This document shows, in pieces, positions 778-45,373 of a DNA stretch of 64,000 nt. Each line of letters starts with the position of its first letter. The stretch's first letter is position 1. The DNA is taken from positions 310,001 through 374,000 of the forward strand of contig JAMFRO010000022.1 in the NCBI GenBank assembly GCA_026224825.1. The letters run 5' to 3'. Source of the DNA: a bacterium (lineage in GTDB: Bacteria > Pseudomonadota > Alphaproteobacteria > Acetobacterales > Acetobacteraceae). Below the pieces are notes generated by a model. It ran no database searches. It was not told where the DNA came from and worked only from the letters and a program-made list of their open reading frames with translations. The translations under genes were made by a program, and so were the position numbers.

Positions 778-922
778 TTGCCGTTGAGATGTCGTATACT
801 GCCGCGGCATGATCTGCGATTATTAGCGATCGCTGTCTGGCATGCGTTTAGGGATATGGGCGCGTCACCGGGAGCCGTTGGCACCTTCGGCGGCAGAATG
901 TGGGCAACCTGGAGGGAACACT

Positions 923-1639
923 TTGAACGAGCGAATGGCATTAAAGCGCGGCGCCACGACCAAGCTTCGGAATACACCCGCTTTCGCCGCGGCCGAAACA
1001 CCTTCGACCAAGGCCCTGCTGATTGACGCCGGCGAAAGATTATTTGGCCATCATGGCTTTGACGGCATCTCTTTGCGAGAGATTGCGGCCGTAGCCGGGC
1101 AAGCCAACAATGCGGTGGTTCATTATCATTTTAAAGACAAACCAGGGTTGATAAGAGCGATTCTCGATGATCGCGTTGTTAGAATCGAGACGATAAGATC
1201 CGAATTATTGACGACGCTTAAAACGAGTCGAAATCCAGATCCAAAAGAAATGCTAAAAATCCTATGGCTTCCTTCGATGAGCATTAAGGGTAGTGATGGA
1301 AGTCATACATTCTGCCGATTTCTGTTGCAGCATATATTGCATCCCGACATGGTGCCACACCCTATTGGCGACGTCATCAACCAACCTAAGGCACGCAAGG
1401 GCAAGGCAAAGGCCGAGTTGCCTTACCTTGTGGAATCTATGGAGATGCTGCGCGAATATTACCACAAAATACCAGAGGAAATATTCTCCAAGCGTCTCTT
1501 GGCTTTGAGTACAATGTTTCTTGCTTCGGTTGTGCAATTTGAGAACACACACTTTATCAAGGCATCCACTGCCACATTAGCTTTTGATACTGATTCAATT
1601 TTGAACATGGGTCTCGCTGCTCTGTCGGCGCCGCCATGA
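923..1639 (+). CDS. TetR/AcrR-family transcriptional regulator
   Basis: The N-terminal part carries a TetR helix-turn-helix: LLIDAGERLFGHHGFDGISL, then REIAAVAGQANNAVVHYHFK. The C-terminal half is an all-alpha ligand domain with no specific match that I recognise. I chose TTG 923 because GGAGGG at 911-916 sits six bases upstream; ATG 935 is the alternative, and the frame is open further upstream. It is divergent from the sulfatase and lies about 60 bp before the FGE, so it probably controls both sides through the palindrome at 722-741. The ligand is unknown. Confidence 0.85.
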   Translation: MNERMALKRGATTKLRNTPAFAAAETPSTKALLIDAGERLFGHHGFDGISLREIAAVAGQANNAVVHYHFKDKPGLIRAILDDRVVRIETIRSELLTTLKTSRNPDPKEMLKILWLPSMSIKGSDGSHTFCRFLLQHILHPDMVPHPIGDVINQPKARKGKAKAELPYLVESMEMLREYYHKIPEEIFSKRLLALSTMFLASVVQFENTHFIKASTATLAFDTDSILNMGLAALSAPP

Positions 1640-1700
1640 AATCAGAGCTGGCCGTAGATTGATCCGCCACATTATAAGCGAGCAGCAAAGGATAGCGGCA

Positions 1701-2669
1701 TTGAACGTGGTAAATGGTGATCATCTGGATGATGTCGAGATGATCGAAGTACCAGGCGGCACATTCATCATGGGCTCCAACGATCATTACGTGGAAGAAG
1801 CTCCCGCGCATCGCGTAAAGGTCGATGATTTTTTAATGGATACTCTGCCGGTAACAAACCGGCGCTTCTCAGCCTTCGTGGCTGCCACGGGCTACACAAC
1901 AGCAGCCGAACTGCCGCCCAACCCCGAGCATTATCCCGGGGCTTTGCCGGAAATGATGTATCCTGGTTCGCTCGTGTTTATCCAGCCAAGGATACCAGCG
2001 ACTCGTGCTGATTGGGGGCAATGGTGGAAGTTTGTCCGTGGTGCCAATTGGCGCCGGCCTTACGGACTGGATAGTGACATCAATGATTTCGGAGATCACC
2101 CTGTTGTTCACATAACTTGGTCCGATGCAGCTGCATTTGCCGAATGGGCGGGCAAGGATTTGCCTACCGAGGCGGAATGGGAGCGGGCCGCACGCGGTGG
2201 CATCGACAGTGCCATTTATGCCTGGGGCAATGATTTGACACCTAGTGGACGCCATATGGCAAACACTTGGCAAGGTGAATTTCCGCATGAGAATTTGCGC
2301 GAGGACGGCTATGCGCGAACATCTCCCGCCGGTGCTTTTCCAGGCAACCCATTTGGCCTCTATGACATGATCGGAAATGTATGGGAGTGGACAAACGATT
2401 GGTATGCCGAACGCCATGAAAGCGACGCAAGCAAAACATGCTGCATACCATCAAATCCACGCGGTGGAGAGCGCGAACGAAGCTTCGATCCCGGCGAACC
2501 AGTCATTAGAATTCCTCGCAAAGTTCTTAAAGGTGGTTCGCATCTCTGTGCACCAAACTATTGCCGCCGCTACCGTCCCGCCGCTCGCTACCCCCAGCCG
2601 ATCGATACGTCGACCAGCCACGTCGGATTTCGATGTGTCAAACGGCACCAACAAACGGCTGAGGGATAG
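1701..2669 (+). CDS. Formylglycine-generating enzyme (SUMF1/FGE family)
   Basis: This FGE-sulfatase domain protein of about 323 residues would oxidise the sulfatase active-site cysteine to formylglycine. Family landmarks are MIEVPGGTFIMGS near the N-terminus, LPTEAEWERAARGG in the middle, FGLYDMIGNVWEWTNDWYAE, and the C-terminal GGSHLCAPNYCRRYRPAAR. The CxxxxC pair in the last motif matches the two catalytic, copper-binding cysteines of true FGEs, so it is likely active and not a generic SUMF1-like protein. TTG 1701 has AAAGGA at 1687-1692 eight bases upstream. In-frame TTG 1659, GTG 1707 and ATG 1740 are alternatives. It is likely co-transcribed with the TetR gene. A paralogue lies at 59283-60260. 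Confidence 0.92.
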   Translation: MNVVNGDHLDDVEMIEVPGGTFIMGSNDHYVEEAPAHRVKVDDFLMDTLPVTNRRFSAFVAATGYTTAAELPPNPEHYPGALPEMMYPGSLVFIQPRIPATRADWGQWWKFVRGANWRRPYGLDSDINDFGDHPVVHITWSDAAAFAEWAGKDLPTEAEWERAARGGIDSAIYAWGNDLTPSGRHMANTWQGEFPHENLREDGYARTSPAGAFPGNPFGLYDMIGNVWEWTNDWYAERHESDASKTCCIPSNPRGGERERSFDPGEPVIRIPRKVLKGGSHLCAPNYCRRYRPAARYPQPIDTSTSHVGFRCVKRHQQTAEG

Positions 2670-2756
2670 CTCCGCTCTTGCTAGTGCCACATTATCGTGA
2701 TCCGCCGAGATGCTTGTTGAAAACCCCACGATGACGCAAACCTCATCGAGGTTGAA

Positions 2757-3083
2757 TCATTCAGTAGCAGACGTCCACGCCCTCTGTGATTCTGATTGTT
2801 GGAGCCCGCTGATGATATCCAGCTTTGGGGCCGGGCACCCGAGATGATGCCCTTGTACTAATTCACAGCCAAATTCCTGAAGCATTTGCAGAGCCTCCAC
2901 CGTTTCAACCCCTTCCGCAACCACCTCGATCCCAAGGGACTGACCTAATTTTAAGATCGTTCGCACTAGAATCTGATCGTTTGATCTGATGTTCGTCCAC
3001 GACCATAATTGGTCAAGATCATGGAAATCGGCTTCCTTCGCGATTAGGTCGGTAGACCGCAAATAAACGCCAGGAAGGAGCAA
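2757..3083 (-). pseudogene. EAL-domain (c-di-GMP phosphodiesterase) C-terminal remnant
   Basis: The minus-strand frame encodes LVRTILKLGQSLGIEVVAEG followed by VETVEALQMLQEFGCELVQG and HHLGCPAP. These are the last helices and strands of an EAL domain (usual form VVAEGVET..G..VQGY..) and only about 55 residues of it. The EAL signature, metal-binding acidic residues and any GGDEF partner are absent upstream. It cannot be an active phosphodiesterase, and I read it as a decayed gene end. No start is supported. Confidence 0.7.
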
Positions 3084-3314
3084 ATGAGGTCGATATCTTT
3101 TTCTCGGGCTCCCTGTAACTTCTCGGTCTCGGAGGTCTAGCAGCTTTTCGCGGCTACGCGGCCAAACCGAGACGTGTAACGGCTTCCAGAATCAAGCGAA
3201 ACGAGGATCTCGGCATGATGCAGTTAGTTCGATAATCGTCCACGAAGGGCAGCCATCGCTCTAAATTGTTCAGTGATTTCAAAGGTATAAAATAAATAAA
3301 GGGCTTTGCGCCGA
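3084..3314 (-). other. Non-genic stretch with a short unrecognised coding remnant
   Basis: No intact gene is visible. On the minus strand a frame ending at 3154 reads SLNNLERWLPFVDDYRTNC then IMPRSSFRLILEAVTRLGLA, which looks like a protein C-terminus. It has no plausible start and I do not recognise the family. The base composition is more AT-rich than the RND gene beside it. Together with the EAL remnant this suggests a deletion or insertion scar between the FGE and the catabolic island. Confidence 0.4.
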
Positions 3315-5723
3315 TCAGGCAGGCGGCTGCTTGAACAGGCGCGGCGGCAGCAGAAAATAAGCCAGGGCCGGCAGGAAAATCATCGCTCCCAGCATGTTCC
3401 AGAGGAACATGAAGGAGAGCAGCACGCCCATATCCGCCTGGAACTTGATTGGCGCGAAAATCCATGTGGCAACGCCGGTTGCCAGGGTGATGCCGGTGAG
3501 AATGACGACGCGGCCGGTGAACAGCAGCGTGGCGTGATAGGCATCTGACAAGGACGCACCCTGGCGCAGGTTTTTGAGCATGATGCTGAGCACATAGAGC
3601 GCGTAATCGACACCTATGCCCACGCCCAGTGCTGTGACCGGCAGCGTGGCGACTTTGACGCCGATGCCGAGCCAGACCATGAGCGTCTGGGCCAGCAGCG
3701 AGGTGATGGTGAGCGGCACGACGGCGCAGATGACGGCGCGCCAGGAGCGGAAGGTGATGAGGCAGAAGATGATGACCACCGCATAGACCAGCACCAGCAT
3801 GTTGCGGTTGGCCTGTTTGATGACGATGTTGGTGGCGGCCTCGATGCCGGCATTACCGCCGGCCAGGGACATTTTGAAATCGGGCCCCTGGTTCTTGGGA
3901 TCATCGATGAAGTTTTGTACTGTGTTGGTGACGGTCTCCAGGGTTTGCGCCTTGTGGTCTGTGAGCGAGATGTAGATGGGCGCGAAGGTGCAACTGAAAT
4001 TGAGCAGCCCGTCCGGCATGATATGCGCCATGGAGCCGAGCAGCCCGTAGGTTGGTTCGAGCCCGTACCATTTTGGCGCACCCTCGCTCTGCAGCATGAA
4101 CATGCTGCTGGCGACACTGCCGGCCGATGTGGTGGAGGCGACGATGGGGAGCTGTTCGAGCTGCCATTGCAGCCGGTCCATGGTGGAGAGCACGTCGAAA
4201 TTGATGCAGCCAGAGACGGGAGTGTCGGTGAGCACGATGAAAGTGTCGCTGCCGGTGGTAAAATTCTTCACGATGAGGGCATTATCGCGATTATATTGTG
4301 AGGCCTGGCGCAGTTCCGGCGCACCTGGCTTGAGGTCGCCGATCTGCAAGCCACGGCCGATATACCAGCCGACGCTGCCGATGGCGGCCATGAAGATGAG
4401 GGCGGCAATGGCATAGTTGCGGGTGGTGAAACGGTCCAGGAAATCCCAGAGCATATGTTTGCGGCGCGGCTCACCGGGGGCGGGCGTGCTGGCGAGCGAG
4501 CGCTGTGCCGCGGATTTGCTGACGCCGGTATAGCTTAGCATCGCGGGCAGCATCATCAGGTTGGTGATGATGAGAATGCCGACACCGATGGAGGCGATGA
4601 GGGCAAGCTGCTGGATGGCGGAGATGCGGATGGTCAGCAGCACGGCAAAACTCGTCATGTCGCAGATGAGGGCGGCGAACCCGGCCAGGAAGAGGCGCCT
4701 GAACGTGTAGCGCGCGGCGACAAGCGGGTGGGTGCCGCGGCCGATATCCTGCATCACCCCGTTCATTTTCTGCGCGCCATGGCTCATGCCTATGGCGAAA
4801 ATGAGGAATGGTACGAGAACGGAATATGGCGTGAGGCCGTAGCCTATGAAGGCGAGGATGCCCATCTGCCAGATGACGGCGGTGAGAGAGGCGAGCACCA
4901 CAAGTGCCGTGCTGCGCACACAGCGCGTGTACCAGAACAGGAAGGCCGAGGCGATGACCAGCGAGACGGCGAAGAAGGTCAATATTTTGTCGATGCCGTT
5001 GATCATGTCACCGACGATCATGGCGAAGCCGGTGATGTGCAGCGTGACGCCTTGGCCGTTGAAGCGCGTTCTGAGCTGATTGAGGTTGCGCGCGAAATCG
5101 CCGTAATCGAGTGGTTCGCCGGTGCGGTAATTTGTTTCCAGGAGCGGGATGGTGAGCATGCTGGAGCGGAAATCGTTGCTGACCAGGCTGCCGATGCGGC
5201 CGGTGCGCAATATGTTCTGGCGCACGAGCTGCAGTTGCTGCGCCGAGCCGTCGTAACTGCCGCCATCGATGACCGGGCCGCCGGCGAAACCGACGGGGGT
5301 GACGGCGACCCAGCGTGTGTTCGGGGTCCAGAGTGAGGTCATGAAGGGCTGGTCGACGCCGGGCAGGAGATAGACGGCGTCGTTGATCTCCTGCAGCACT
5401 TTCAGATAATGCGCATCGATGATCGTGCCCTGGTTGGCGGTGACGGCGATCTGCACGGCATTGGCCTGCGCCTGCAGCGCGTCGTAATGCTGCAGGTAAT
5501 TGCGGATGAAGGGCTGATGCGTCGGGATCGTATCGTTGTAATCGGCATTAACGCGGACTTTTAGCGCGGCCAGCCCGAGGAAGATGGTGACCACGGCGCA
5601 GATGAGCAGGAAGATGGATCTGTTGTTGAACAGGATCTGTTCGAAAATCGAGCCGCTGGCTTTGTCGAAATCATCGACATTCGCGTGCACCGTCATGTCC
5701 TGGTGATTATAATCCAACGCCAT
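3315..5723 (-). CDS. RND-superfamily (MMPL-type) exporter
   Basis: This 802-residue inner-membrane protein has the two-fold RND layout. TM1 is at about residues 36-54, followed by a periplasmic domain, five helices at about 245-400, TM7 near 440, a second periplasmic domain, and a final helix bundle containing LPVTALGVGIGVDYALYVLS. That last motif, with its GxxxD pattern, is typical of RND helices that carry protons. It lies seven bases downstream of the YCF48 gene and ends an operon of amidohydrolase, DUF1302, DUF1329, YCF48 and RND. This set recurs in clusters for degradation of hydrophobic compounds, where it is thought to move substrate or intermediates across the envelope. The cargo here is unknown. 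HpnN (hopanoid transporter) is related but unlikely given the neighbours. Confidence 0.9.
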   Translation of the reverse strand: MALDYNHQDMTVHANVDDFDKASGSIFEQILFNNRSIFLLICAVVTIFLGLAALKVRVNADYNDTIPTHQPFIRNYLQHYDALQAQANAVQIAVTANQGTIIDAHYLKVLQEINDAVYLLPGVDQPFMTSLWTPNTRWVAVTPVGFAGGPVIDGGSYDGSAQQLQLVRQNILRTGRIGSLVSNDFRSSMLTIPLLETNYRTGEPLDYGDFARNLNQLRTRFNGQGVTLHITGFAMIVGDMINGIDKILTFFAVSLVIASAFLFWYTRCVRSTALVVLASLTAVIWQMGILAFIGYGLTPYSVLVPFLIFAIGMSHGAQKMNGVMQDIGRGTHPLVAARYTFRRLFLAGFAALICDMTSFAVLLTIRISAIQQLALIASIGVGILIITNLMMLPAMLSYTGVSKSAAQRSLASTPAPGEPRRKHMLWDFLDRFTTRNYAIAALIFMAAIGSVGWYIGRGLQIGDLKPGAPELRQASQYNRDNALIVKNFTTGSDTFIVLTDTPVSGCINFDVLSTMDRLQWQLEQLPIVASTTSAGSVASSMFMLQSEGAPKWYGLEPTYGLLGSMAHIMPDGLLNFSCTFAPIYISLTDHKAQTLETVTNTVQNFIDDPKNQGPDFKMSLAGGNAGIEAATNIVIKQANRNMLVLVYAVVIIFCLITFRSWRAVICAVVPLTITSLLAQTLMVWLGIGVKVATLPVTALGVGIGVDYALYVLSIMLKNLRQGASLSDAYHATLLFTGRVVILTGITLATGVATWIFAPIKFQADMGVLLSFMFLWNMLGAMIFLPALAYFLLPPRLFKQPPA

Positions 5724-40706: not shown

Positions 40707-41918
40707 GTGCGTATCGTGATGAAATTCGGCGGCACCTCGGTGGCCGACCTCGACCGGATTAAAAACGTGGCGAGGCGTGTCAAAGCCGAGGTCGATGCCG
40801 GTAACGAGGTCGCCGTGGTGGTCTCGGCCATGTCCGGCATCACCAACCAGCTCGTCGGCTGGTGCCAGGAGCTTTCCCCGCTGTTCGACGCCCGCGAATA
40901 TGACGCCGTGGTCGCCACAGGCGAGCAGGTCACCGCCGGGCTCACCGCCATCGCGCTGCAAACCCTGGGCATCGAGGCGCGCAGTTGGCAGGGCTGGCAA
41001 ATCGCCGTCGAGACCGACGGCCAGCACAGCAAAGCCCGCATCCAGAGCATCGAGGCCGAAGAGCTACTCGCCCGCATGGCCACCGGCCAGGTCGCCGTGA
41101 TGGCCGGTTTCCAGGGCATCGGCCCGGATAACCGCGTCACCACATTGGGCCGCGGCGGCTCGGACACGTCCGCGGTTGCTCTCGCGGCCGCCCTCAAAGC
41201 CGACCGCTGCGATATTTATACGGATGTGGATGGGATTTACACAACCGATCCGCGAATCGTCCCTGGCGCGCGTAAGCTGAATAAGATTACCTACGAGGAG
41301 ATGCTGGAGCTGGCCTCTGTGGGCGCGAAAGTGCTGCAGACGCGCTCGGTCGAGCTGGCGATGAAGGAGCGCGTGCGGGTGCAGGTGCTCTCGAGCTTTA
41401 CGGACGCACCCGGGACTTTGGTTGTTGATGAGGATGAGGTTGTGGAACAGGAAATCGTGGCGGGGATCGCCTATTCGCGTGATGAAGCAAAGGTCACCGT
41501 GCGCCAGGTGCCGGACCGGCCCGGCATCGCCGCCGCCGTGTTCGGGCCGCTCGCCGACGCACATGTCAACGTGGATATGATCGTCCAGAATGTCTCCGCC
41601 GACGGCACCACGGACATGACCTTCACCGTGGGAAAAACCGATTTCCTACGCGCCCAGGCCGTGCTGGAAGAGGCCCGCAAGGACATCGGCTATGCCGAGA
41701 TCACCGCCGACCAGGATGTGGCCAAAATCTCCGTCGTCGGCGTGGGTATGCGCAGCCATGCCGGTGTGGCTGGAACAATGTTCAAAACCCTCGCCGAGGA
41801 AGGCATCAACATCCAGGTCATCTCCACCTCCGAGATCAAGGTGAGCGTGCTGATAGCAGCCAAATACACCGAATTGGCGGTGCGGGCTTTGCACACGGCG
41901 TACCGTCTCGATGCTTGA
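40707..41918 (+). CDS. lysC: Aspartate kinase LysC
   Basis: The 403-residue aspartokinase has the substrate loop MKFGGTSVADLDRI, catalytic residues in TTLGRGGSDTSAVALAAALK, and two C-terminal ACT domains (TVRQVPDRPGIAAAVFG and KISVVGVGMRSHAGVAGTMF) for feedback control by lysine or threonine. It catalyses the first step of lysine, threonine and methionine synthesis. GTG 40707 gives the N-terminus MRIVMKFGG usual in alphaproteobacteria. Its last codons overlap the next gene by eight bases. Confidence 0.95.
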   Translation: MRIVMKFGGTSVADLDRIKNVARRVKAEVDAGNEVAVVVSAMSGITNQLVGWCQELSPLFDAREYDAVVATGEQVTAGLTAIALQTLGIEARSWQGWQIAVETDGQHSKARIQSIEAEELLARMATGQVAVMAGFQGIGPDNRVTTLGRGGSDTSAVALAAALKADRCDIYTDVDGIYTTDPRIVPGARKLNKITYEEMLELASVGAKVLQTRSVELAMKERVRVQVLSSFTDAPGTLVVDEDEVVEQEIVAGIAYSRDEAKVTVRQVPDRPGIAAAVFGPLADAHVNVDMIVQNVSADGTTDMTFTVGKTDFLRAQAVLEEARKDIGYAEITADQDVAKISVVGVGMRSHAGVAGTMFKTLAEEGINIQVISTSEIKVSVLIAAKYTELAVRALHTAYRLDA

Positions 41919-43122
41919 TACCCCGCCGGACAACGCTCTTCAGATGCTCATAGCCGCCGGTAAGGAACGTGGGTTTGTCACCTTTGCCGAGGTGGTGGCA
42001 GCACTCCCGACCAGCCGCTTCAGCTCGGAAGAGATCGAACAGGCTCTTTTGGCGCTGGATCAAGCCGGCATTGCCATTGTCGAGAAGGCAATTGACGCGC
42101 GCGAAAAGGCCGAAGTCACTTTCCAGGCCCTGACCGCGCGGGGTAGAAAATTCCTCGGCACCGAACACGCCATCCTGGCCGGTGCCATGAGCTGGGTGTC
42201 CGAGCGCCATCTCGTCTCCGCCATCTCCAACGCCGGCGGGTTCGGCGTCATCGCCTGTGGCGCCATGCCGCCGGAACTGCTGGAGAAGGAAATCGCCGCG
42301 ACCAAGGCGCTGACGGATAAGCCTTTCGGCGTGAACCTGATCACCATGCACCCGGCGCTCGAAGAGCTGATCCAGGTCTGCGTGCGGGCGAAAGTCGGCC
42401 ATGTCGTGTTCGCGGGCGGCATCCCCTCGCAAGCGAACATCCGCGCGGCAAAAGAGGGCGGCGCGAAAATCATCGCCTTCGCCCCTGCCCTCGTGCTGGC
42501 CAAAAAGCTTATCAAATCCGGTGCCGATGCGCTGGTCATCGAGGGCTCGGAAGCCGGCGGCCATATCGGCCCGGTCTCCCTCACAGTGCTGAGCCAGGAA
42601 ATCCTGCCCTATGTCACCGATGTCCCCGTCTTCGTCGCCGGCGGCCTCGGCCGTGGCGAGGCCGTGCTGGGCTACCTGGAAATGGGCGCCGCCGGTGCCC
42701 AGCTCGGCACGTTGTTCGCTGCCTCTACCGAGAGCATCGCGCATGAAAACTTCAAGAAATCCTTCGTCCGCGCCAACGCCCGCGATGCCGTGCCGTCCGT
42801 GCAGATCGACGAGCGTTTCCCCGTCATCCCCGTACGCGGCCTCGTGAACGAAGGCACCAAGCGCTTCATGCGCCACCAGGCCGAGGTGCTGAAAAAATTC
42901 CAGGATGGCGAGCTGGACAAAACCGCCGCACAGCTCGAAATCGAGCATTTCTGGGCCGGGGCTTTGCGCCGCGCCGTCATCGATGGCGATGTGGAGAGCG
43001 GCTCGGTCATGGCCGGCCAATCGGTCGGCATGGTGACGGCGGTCCTCCCCGTCGCCGACATCCTGGCCGCCATCCGGTCTCAGGCTATCTCAGCCTTGGC
43101 GGCGCGTGCAGAGCGGGGCTGA
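41911..43122 (+). CDS. Nitronate monooxygenase-like flavoprotein with N-terminal sigma-70 region 1.1-like domain
   Basis: The 403-residue protein is a fusion. Residues about 72-400 are an NMO/2-nitropropane dioxygenase TIM barrel: RKFLGTEHAILAGAMSWVSE, ISNAGGFGVIACG, DALVIEGSEAGGHIG and VFVAGGLGRGEAVLGYLEMG for FMN binding. Residues 8-62 (LQMLIAAGKERGFVTFAEVV and SSEEIEQALLALDQAGIAIV) closely resemble region 1.1 of RpoD, which has GKE.GY.T..E...LP and S..IED...... GI. ATG 41911 overlaps the lysC stop by eight bases, so the extension is in the natural reading frame. The barrel alone would need a start near codon 70. Oxidation of alkyl nitronates is the family reaction; the N-terminal role is unknown. 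Confidence 0.85.
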   Translation: MLDTPPDNALQMLIAAGKERGFVTFAEVVAALPTSRFSSEEIEQALLALDQAGIAIVEKAIDAREKAEVTFQALTARGRKFLGTEHAILAGAMSWVSERHLVSAISNAGGFGVIACGAMPPELLEKEIAATKALTDKPFGVNLITMHPALEELIQVCVRAKVGHVVFAGGIPSQANIRAAKEGGAKIIAFAPALVLAKKLIKSGADALVIEGSEAGGHIGPVSLTVLSQEILPYVTDVPVFVAGGLGRGEAVLGYLEMGAAGAQLGTLFAASTESIAHENFKKSFVRANARDAVPSVQIDERFPVIPVRGLVNEGTKRFMRHQAEVLKKFQDGELDKTAAQLEIEHFWAGALRRAVIDGDVESGSVMAGQSVGMVTAVLPVADILAAIRSQAISALAARAERG

Positions 43123-45373
43123 AACCCCGCCCAAGAGGCGCAAACGCAAGCCGAAATTCGGCGACACACGGCAGCTCTTTGCCTTGCTCCGGGAGCATCT
43201 GGCCTCCGGCGCCGCTTCCCTGGCCGATATCGCCCGGCTGGTATCCGACGGGCTGCTGGCCGATGCCGCCGTAATCTACGTGGCCCGGCCAGGCGAGCTG
43301 CTGGAGCTGGCCGCCACCCAGGGGCTGAATGTCAACGCCGTCGGCCATACCCGCTTGCGGGCGGGCGAGGGCATCATCGGCATGGTCGCCGCCTCGGGCG
43401 ACATTCTCAACCTGGCCGACGCGCAGAACCATCCGCGCTATGTGTACCGCGCCGAGATCGGCGAAGAGGCCATGGCCTCGATGCTGGCCGTACCGGTCAA
43501 ACGAGCCGGGCGCACGCTCGGCGTCATCGCCGTGATGTCGCGCGAGGCAAGGGTGTATTCGCCCATGGAGGTGGAAGCCCTGGCCACCGTCTCCATGCTG
43601 CTGGCCGAGATTCTGGCCAAAGCCGGCGCCACGGATATGGGCGAGGAAGGTTTCTCCGACACTCTGCCCCGGCGCTACGCCGGCCATGTCCTCTCCGCCG
43701 GCATCGCCCGTGGCCAAATCCTGCCCTATGGCGCGCCCCCGCCCATCGGCCGGCTGCTCACCGACGACCCGGATGCCGAGATAAAACGGCTGAACGTAGC
43801 GGTGGACGCCGCCAACAAAGGGCTGGATAAACTCTTCTCAGCCAACATGCCCGGCGGCGCCACCTCGCGCGACGTGCTGGAAGCCTACCGCATGGTCACG
43901 CAAAGCTCCGGCTGGCTGACGCAGATCCGCGAGGCCATCGAGGACGGTCTCACCGCCGAAACCGCCGTGGACAAGGTGGCGCGCAATTTGCGCGAACGCA
44001 TGCGCCGCATCGCCGACCCGTACCTGCGCGAGCGCCTGGCCGATATCGAGGACATGGTCGGGAGGCTGATGGTCGCCCTGGGGGGCATGGCTCCCAAACC
44101 GGAACGGGCAGACGGCTACATCCTCCTCGTCCGCCGCCTAGGCCCGGCTGATCTATTGGATTGGCACGCGCGCGGCATCGCCGGCGTCGCCATCGAGGAA
44201 GCCAGTGCCTCCGGCCATGCCGCGATTCTGGCCCGCGCCCTGGGGATTCCGGCGCTACAGGTGGACCGTGGTGCGGTGGAAACCGCACAAGAGGGCGACC
44301 CCGCCATTCTGGACGCCGAAGGCGCGACGCTGATCCTGCGCCCCGAGCCCGCCGTGACGGAGGTGTATGACCGCGCCCTGGAAGCCCGCACCATGCGCGC
44401 GGTGGCTTTGGCCGCCTATCGCGACCGCCCCACCATCACCAAGGACGGCACGGAAATCCAGTTGATGCTCAATGTCGGCCTGGCTCTGGAGCTGGACCAG
44501 TTGGAGCGCACCGGGGCGGACGGTATCGGCCTGTACCGCACTGAAATTGCCGCATTGGCGGCAGGCGGCATCCCGGATGTCGCGGGCCAGGCGGCGGAAT
44601 ACGGCCGCGTGCTGGACCGCGCCAACGGCAAGAAGGTGCAATTCCGCACGCTCGACCTCGGCGCCGACAAACTCCTCCCCGGCGAGGCCGGCGCCGGCGA
44701 GGAAAACCCCGCCATGGGCTGGCGCTCCTTGCGCGTCGGCCTGGACCGCCCGGCAATATTACGCCGCCAACTCCGCGCGCTGCTGCTGGGCGCACAAGGG
44801 CGCAAACTCTCCATCATGTTCCCCATGGTCGCCACGGTGGAGGAATTCCGCGCCGCGCGCGATCTGCTGGAGGCCGAGACCGCGCGCATCCGCCCCGCCC
44901 CCGAGGAACTCGAAGTCGGCACCATGCTGGAAGTCCCGGCACTGCTGTTCCAGCTCCCTGGGCTGCTGGCCGAAGCGGATTTCATCTCCGTCGGCACCAA
45001 CGACCTCATGCAATTCCTCTTCGCCGCCGACCGTGGCACGCCGGAGCTGGTGGACCGCTACGACACCCTCTCCGCCCCCGTGCTGGAACTGCTGGAGAAG
45101 CTCGTCACCGCGTGCCAAGAGGCGGGCGTGGCCCTCTCCGTGTGCGGCGAGGCCGCCGGCCGGCCGCTGGATGCGCTGGCCTTCGCGGCGCTGGGCATTG
45201 TCTGCCTCTCCATGTCCGGCAATGCGATTCTGCCCGTAAAAGCCGTGCTGGTGGAGGCGGATTTGAACGCTCTGCGCCCGGTATTGCGCGAATTGCGCCG
45301 CGCCGGAGCCGCGGGGGGCAGCATACGCGAGCCGCTGGCCGCCTGGGCGCGCGAGCATAATTTGGCGGTTTGA
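43106..45373 (+). CDS. ptsP: Nitrogen-PTS phosphoenolpyruvate-protein phosphotransferase PtsP (EI-Ntr)
   Basis: The 755-residue protein has an N-terminal GAF domain (about 30-170), the PEP-utiliser swivelling part with phosphohistidine in SASGHAAILARALGIPALQV, and the C-terminal barrel with GADGIGLYRTE, RTLDLGADKLLPG, GTMLEVPALLFQLPG, ISVGTNDLMQFLFAADR and CGEAAGRP. It phosphorylates NPr from PEP and links nitrogen or amino acid status to regulation. The GTG start at 43106 overlaps the previous stop by 17 bases. It is in a row with lysC and the NMO-like gene. Confidence 0.95.
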   Translation: MQSGAETPPKRRKRKPKFGDTRQLFALLREHLASGAASLADIARLVSDGLLADAAVIYVARPGELLELAATQGLNVNAVGHTRLRAGEGIIGMVAASGDILNLADAQNHPRYVYRAEIGEEAMASMLAVPVKRAGRTLGVIAVMSREARVYSPMEVEALATVSMLLAEILAKAGATDMGEEGFSDTLPRRYAGHVLSAGIARGQILPYGAPPPIGRLLTDDPDAEIKRLNVAVDAANKGLDKLFSANMPGGATSRDVLEAYRMVTQSSGWLTQIREAIEDGLTAETAVDKVARNLRERMRRIADPYLRERLADIEDMVGRLMVALGGMAPKPERADGYILLVRRLGPADLLDWHARGIAGVAIEEASASGHAAILARALGIPALQVDRGAVETAQEGDPAILDAEGATLILRPEPAVTEVYDRALEARTMRAVALAAYRDRPTITKDGTEIQLMLNVGLALELDQLERTGADGIGLYRTEIAALAAGGIPDVAGQAAEYGRVLDRANGKKVQFRTLDLGADKLLPGEAGAGEENPAMGWRSLRVGLDRPAILRRQLRALLLGAQGRKLSIMFPMVATVEEFRAARDLLEAETARIRPAPEELEVGTMLEVPALLFQLPGLLAEADFISVGTNDLMQFLFAADRGTPELVDRYDTLSAPVLELLEKLVTACQEAGVALSVCGEAAGRPLDALAFAALGIVCLSMSGNAILPVKAVLVEADLNALRPVLRELRRAGAAGGSIREPLAAWAREHNLAV

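Follow-up and report, generated by a model that had tools for sequence, protein, structure and literature searches.

A single gene located between lysC and a ptsP-type gene in an Acetobacteraceae genome encodes a protein in which an RpoD-like sigma-70 region 1.1 is joined to a FabK/NMO-type flavin oxidoreductase. The fusion looks both real and recent, and the added domain is probably folded and tolerated as a passenger by an enzyme that still works, without having been selected for any role in transcription. The stretch of DNA analysed here (64,000 nucleotides; hereafter the window) contains the following features at this locus.

40707..41918, + strand: lysC, encoding aspartate kinase, its 3' end overlapping the start of the fusion gene (NCBIfam NF005154, 620 bits, cut-off 376)
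41911..43122, + strand: fusion gene, ATG start, 403 residues; region 1.1 plus putative FabK/NMO-type FMN oxidoreductase (sequence, Pfam)
41911..41918, + strand: ATG of the fusion gene, sharing bases with the lysC stop (ATGCTTGA); the insert-free sister lineage has an identical octamer there
41932..42108, + strand: sigma-70 region 1.1, residues 8-66 (PF03979, E 2.3e-14); the inserted segment spans approximately residues 3-66
42109..42150, + strand: residues 67-80, last part of the enzyme's ancestral leader; alignment with the sister at the DNA level resumes here
42151..43119, + strand: FMN barrel of the FabK/NMO superfamily, residues 81-403 (PF03060, 2e-50; FabK 7l00, E 1.3e-58; Foldseek FabK, 2.3e-30)
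42550..42564, + strand: EAGGH motif, residues 214-218; H218 is invariant in a 52-row alignment and the motif aligns with the FabK GGH
43106..45373, + strand: PtsP-type phosphoenolpyruvate-protein phosphotransferase gene, whose start overlaps the fusion gene's 3' end (NF008283, 406 bits, cut-off 583; TIGR01417, 330 bits, cut-off 341.7; both below cut-off)

The two halves of the protein

The initial annotation had likened the first 62 or so residues of the protein to RpoD region 1.1, and profile searches bear this out. Using hmmscan against Pfam, Sigma70_r1_1 was identified at residues 8-66 with 53.6 bits (cut-off 22.5), covering profile positions 5-63 of 81, and with an E-value of 1.1e-15 when the first 80 residues were searched alone. 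The same 80 residues were also matched by the NCBIfam RpoD model PRK05658 (E 5.4e-9). PDB sequences matching the first 72 residues at E-values up to 1 were RpoD or SigA in 22 of 23 cases, the remaining and weakest row (E 0.55) being an unrelated protein. Of the 18 columns with at least 90% conservation among 33 RpoD region 1.1 sequences, the domain in the window retains 14, and it matches the consensus at only 4 of the 20 variable columns, a pattern that, judging from the alignment, is as expected for a real, diverged homolog.

The net charge of residues 8-58 (-4) is similar to that of 13 RpoD copies from the family (-3 to -4), but the acidic tail that follows region 1.1 in RpoD is missing from the fusion. 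Segments of about 70 residues including this tail have a net charge of -9 to -11 in eight RpoD copies, versus -6 for the first 72 residues of the window protein. No further sigma domain was detected in the fusion protein with Pfam at E-values up to 10, indicating that regions 1.2-4.2 are absent. The N-terminus of the fusion hence shares with RpoD/SigA region 1.1 (PF03979) its sequence family, most of its conserved residues, its predicted helix-strand order and its N-terminal position, but is followed by a flavin enzyme instead of the remaining sigma regions.

Structure predictions were obtained for the isolated domain and for the whole protein. The model of residues 1-80 (mean pLDDT 68.7), based on an alignment that included 11 viral-contig sequences (nine RpoD and two from long non-sigma ORFs), presents the order of helices and strands expected for region 1.1 (H6-20, E22-24, H25-31, H39-51, E55-57). 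Foldseek searches with this model returned sigma-factor chains in the first 11 of 50 listed rows, among them the isolated sigma1.1 domains 5mww and 2k6x, as well as 8to1_L and 8tom_L, for which chain identity was inferred, all with weak E-values (0.03-1.4). The full-length model (52 rows; mean pLDDT 86.8) shows pLDDT values of 42-81 in its first six ten-residue blocks, and a single long helix (residues 39-82) running through the end of the domain rather than the region 1.1 wing; the other rows in its alignment were trimmed and none of them covers the N-terminus. The fold comparison, weak by itself, agrees with region 1.1, and it is the sequence evidence that carries the assignment.

The rest of the protein is covered by the Pfam NMO profile (PF03060), with 172.5 bits against a cut-off of 28. 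The nearest solved relatives of this barrel by sequence are FabK enoyl-ACP reductases (7l00, 202 bits), with a T. maritima protein, deposited as a putative nitroalkane dioxygenase, also among the best, whereas PDB entries named nitronate monooxygenase reach 88 bits or less (88 and 69 bits for 6e2a and 4q4k). In Foldseek searches with the full-length model, ranks 1-15 were occupied by FabK entries and T. maritima 3bo9, followed by the NADH:quinone reductase PA1024. The GGH motif has a catalytic role in FabK, and the segment EGSEAGGHIG of the window protein carries this motif, with H218 invariant in the 52 aligned sequences and aligned with the matching FabK GGH.

The barrel thus has in FabK enoyl-ACP reductase II (TIGR03151; 7l00, 5gvh, 2z6i) its closest solved relative in sequence and fold, but it scores 241 bits against the FabK equivalog TIGR03151, below the cut-off of 453.1, and the window protein bears an additional fused domain. 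Since it lies nearest to FabK and yet falls under the FabK cut-off, we designate it a putative FabK/NMO-type FMN oxidoreductase of unproven substrate. The description of this half as a nitronate monooxygenase-type flavoprotein therefore stands in part: the FMN barrel belongs to the Pfam NMO family, but it is closer to FabK than to entries named nitronate monooxygenase, and by activity the enzyme is only a putative member of that group. The same holds for its orthologs next to lysC, which map to Pfam NMO and are closer to FabK in sequence and fold, yet score under the FabK model cut-off.

Comparison with the closest relative of the window, a sister lineage lacking the insert, yielded dN and dS values of 0.035 and 0.569 for the NMO gene (Nei-Gojobori; dN/dS about 0.06) and of 0.029 and 0.607 for lysC (Nei-Gojobori). 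With another method, the NMO values were 0.028 (dN) and 1.08 (dS). The low dN relative to dS indicates that the enzyme is still constrained.

Distribution and origin of the insertion

The fusion gene lies in its natural frame, as had been proposed, with its ATG inside the last codons of lysC, the stop of which occupies positions 41916-41918. The flanking genes also agree with the initial annotation: the upstream neighbor is confirmed as an aspartate kinase, and the downstream one is of PtsP type, with scores below the cut-offs of its models. In the sister (L001/G124), the same ATGCTTGA overlap with lysC is followed by a short leader before the alignment resumes. Translation should start at the ancestral ATG overlapping lysC. 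That the N-terminal stretch is untranslated, or that the barrel alone is made from an internal start, appears highly improbable. There are in-frame alternatives at residues 12 (ATG), 28 and 29 (GTG) and 47 (TTG), but a sequence scan found no in-frame ATG, GTG or TTG at residues 48-92, which leaves no candidate start near codon 70, the alternative contemplated in the initial annotation. Moreover, the residue-1 ATG is common to window and sister, and an internal start would leave part of region 1.1 attached anyway.

The same gene adjoins lysC widely across the Acetobacteraceae. The ortholog set analyzed here combined the 80 top-ranking loci out of 536 confirmed in the family with 30 loci from genomes of the genus, the window's own included. 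These 110 loci correspond to 94 distinct sequences, again with the window's own. Region 1.1 is absent from all 93 other distinct sequences. When a region 1.1 HMM derived from 18 RpoD copies was run over the three frames of 400 upstream bases, the window returned an E-value of 1.2e-18 and the best of the other 93 an E-value of 0.62. All 38 genomes of the genus presented a match to the protein, with a strong ortholog in 33 of them (own genome included); four lack a strong ortholog (G106, G107, G110 and G111) and one contains only part of it (G112), their estimated completeness being 73-90%. The alignment begins at residue 1 in the window's own genome alone and between residues 48 and 135 in the others, and the fusion is hence present in 1 of the 38 genomes and known from one assembly.

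The DNA of lysC aligns upstream of the gene in 108 of the 110 loci (the exceptions being L063 and L117), which, together with the lack of the domain in the other sequences examined, points to an old gene order and a new domain. The sister is 95% identical to the window protein from residue 66 on and has no region 1.1. Orthologs differ in how long the leader ahead of the barrel is and in its sequence, and this identifies it as a permissive site. Given that all 93 orthologs, including the 95% identical sister, lack the domain, the alignments identify region 1.1 as an insertion particular to one lineage, placed in frame within the variable leader at the N-terminus, and not as a conserved link between metabolism and transcription. 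If gained once, the insertion is younger than the split between window and sister. A conserved fusion in the family is ruled out for the examined set (0 of 93; best 80 of 536 loci plus genus genomes). The survey of Acetobacteraceae orthologs suggested in the initial annotation was therefore negative in the loci examined, and the link between metabolism and transcription that it had put forward finds no support as a conserved arrangement; a repurposed domain, the other reading it offered, or a passenger domain fits better.

A singleton fusion with no donor in its own genome could also arise through an assembly or binning artefact joining a stray RpoD fragment to the gene, and the insert does present a lower GC3 (0.66, versus 0.80 in lysC and 0.82 in the barrel), although 12% of 74 nearby 64-codon pieces are equally low. 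We consider such an artefact very unlikely, because the locus lies inside a 446-kb contig, the insert is in frame at both ends and begins at the ancestral start, and it has no close match to any sampled RpoD.

Searches for a donor encompassed 397 family, 299 order, 385 class and 398 phylum genomes (overlapping sets), the phylum search using a stricter limit of 1e-9 that was passed by 19 of the 398 genomes, and found none. In these protein searches the window scored 138 bits and, among the matches listed (sorted by E-value), no other exceeded 48.3 bits. The runners-up were mostly RpoD-sized frames, and those translated were sigma factors. Among the matches listed, the window domain is about 45-55% identical to the best-scoring sampled region 1.1 copies. 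A Pfam survey covering 133 class genomes gave matches in 119, and the window frame of 421 aa was alone in its size, all other frames having at least 587 aa except for five short ones (110-358 aa); the one inspected among these (G520, L167) is an RpoD cut by a contig end. No plasmid donor emerged from 74 records, all below 60% identity; among the 40 listed, the named rows are rpoD or sigma factors and many are unannotated. The nine phage records retrieved are likewise below 60% identity and carry sigma factor or RNA polymerase names or are unannotated, and none of 35 stretches obtained by searching viral contigs with the single domain sequence was confirmed.

A recent copy of the rpoD gene in the same genome was rejected as the source: the two agree at 28 of 57 aligned residues and at 53% of nucleotides, and use the same codon at just 10 of those 28 residues, while the dS of the sister split is about 0.57. 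A search of the same genome for a second DNA copy of the domain returned, otherwise, only matches under 30 bases. An origin from the free region 1.1 ORFs described below is not favored either: the best of them scores 42.1 bits when compared with the window domain, which places it ahead of the diverged second sigma factors and behind 16 RpoD copies (43.3-49.0 bits). A tree of 58 short domains placed the window on a long branch near the second sigma factors of the family, and was given no weight. Around the junctions, the only candidate insertion scar is a direct repeat of 7 bases close to the left one, and no intermediate form was found in the relatives examined.

Passenger domain or functional region 1.1

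The explanation that best accommodates these results is that a conserved FabK/NMO-type flavin oxidoreductase would have gained an RpoD-like region 1.1, in frame, within its variable N-terminal leader. The insertion would have taken place in one lineage of a genus inferred to be Acidocella, after its split from the nearest sampled relative. Translation from the ancestral ATG would then yield a region 1.1 domain of about 60 residues tethered to an intact flavin enzyme, with the domain presumably folding and the enzyme presumably keeping its ancestral activity. The restriction to a single lineage and the permissive insertion site make a folded passenger the economical reading. As a counterpoint, the 14 of 18 near-invariant columns and the RpoD-like charge could mean that the sequence has been under selection as a region 1.1.

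Retention of the domain for an effect on the enzyme (assembly, stability or solubility), or for a partner other than RNA polymerase, is an unlikely alternative. In the full-length model the domain runs directly into the barrel's leader helix, with modest confidence there, but all 93 other distinct sequences manage without it.

A functional region 1.1 is a further possibility, in which the acidic face of the domain would dock either on free RpoD or inside the RNA polymerase DNA channel, and the flavin enzyme would be held at the polymerase, or modulate it, according to redox or acyl-ACP state; taken as a whole, we regard this as unlikely. Little of the domain is missing, and it has retained most conserved residues as well as the core charge, but region 1.1 is known to act in cis within sigma, the fusion has been seen in one lineage only, the acidic tail of RpoD is missing, and there is no known sensor link. 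According to a review, sigma1.1 compacts free sigma and, in the holoenzyme, occupies the RNA polymerase channel as a negatively charged mimic of DNA (PMC4598750). A transplanted copy could in principle do likewise in trans. The same review provides in PhyR a precedent for a sigma-like domain on a non-sigma (receiver) protein, with the difference that PhyR has sigma2/sigma4-like parts and a known anti-sigma partner (PMC4598750). That a flavin enzyme of acyl or redox metabolism has captured a DNA-mimicking domain from the main sigma factor and directly visits RNA polymerase, operating as a one-component switch in one Acidocella lineage, would be an improbable outcome. The tolerated passenger hence stands as the preferred reading.

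Region 1.1 outside sigma factors

Region 1.1 is usually treated as a part working inside the primary sigma factor. In a few other genera of the family, several loci (L122, L193, L195, L196, L202 and L205-L209) present single or tandem copies of region 1.1 without recognizable sigma regions. These are possible free region 1.1 proteins, some of them perhaps fragments, and they resemble the fusion in that they carry region 1.1 apart from a sigma factor and come from the same bacterial family, but they are small stand-alone or tandem ORFs. Several family genomes also encode a second sigma factor of the RpoD-like kind whose region 1.1 has diverged (L121, L123, L124, L125, L126, L194, L197-L201 and L203). 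In addition, two viral contigs show region 1.1 in the middle of a long ORF, at L241:2983-3216 (ORF 781-5001, 1407 aa; Pfam E 1.4e-14) and L243:2983-3216 (ORF 787-5556, 1590 aa; Pfam E 1.1e-6). Both ORFs have a weak match to a virion structural protein family; that of L241 also matches weakly a virion RNA polymerase family, and that of L243 contains a HATPase domain. As leads only, the free ORFs and the two viral-contig proteins hint that region 1.1 is portable, and it is plausible that it moves more than usually assumed.

The literature search returned no report of a nitronate monooxygenase with a sigma factor region 1.1, of a region 1.1 fusion architecture or of an Acidocella nitronate monooxygenase. 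The fusion is real, unusual and without precedent in the literature searched. It shows how a permissive N-terminus can accept a folded domain, and the coexistence of an enzyme-borne region 1.1 and a close relative without the domain constitutes a natural control for asking whether region 1.1 can act in trans. Should the protein bind RNA polymerase, it would represent a new kind of connection between an enzyme and the polymerase; otherwise it would stand as a tidy illustration of how a domain can be gained neutrally.
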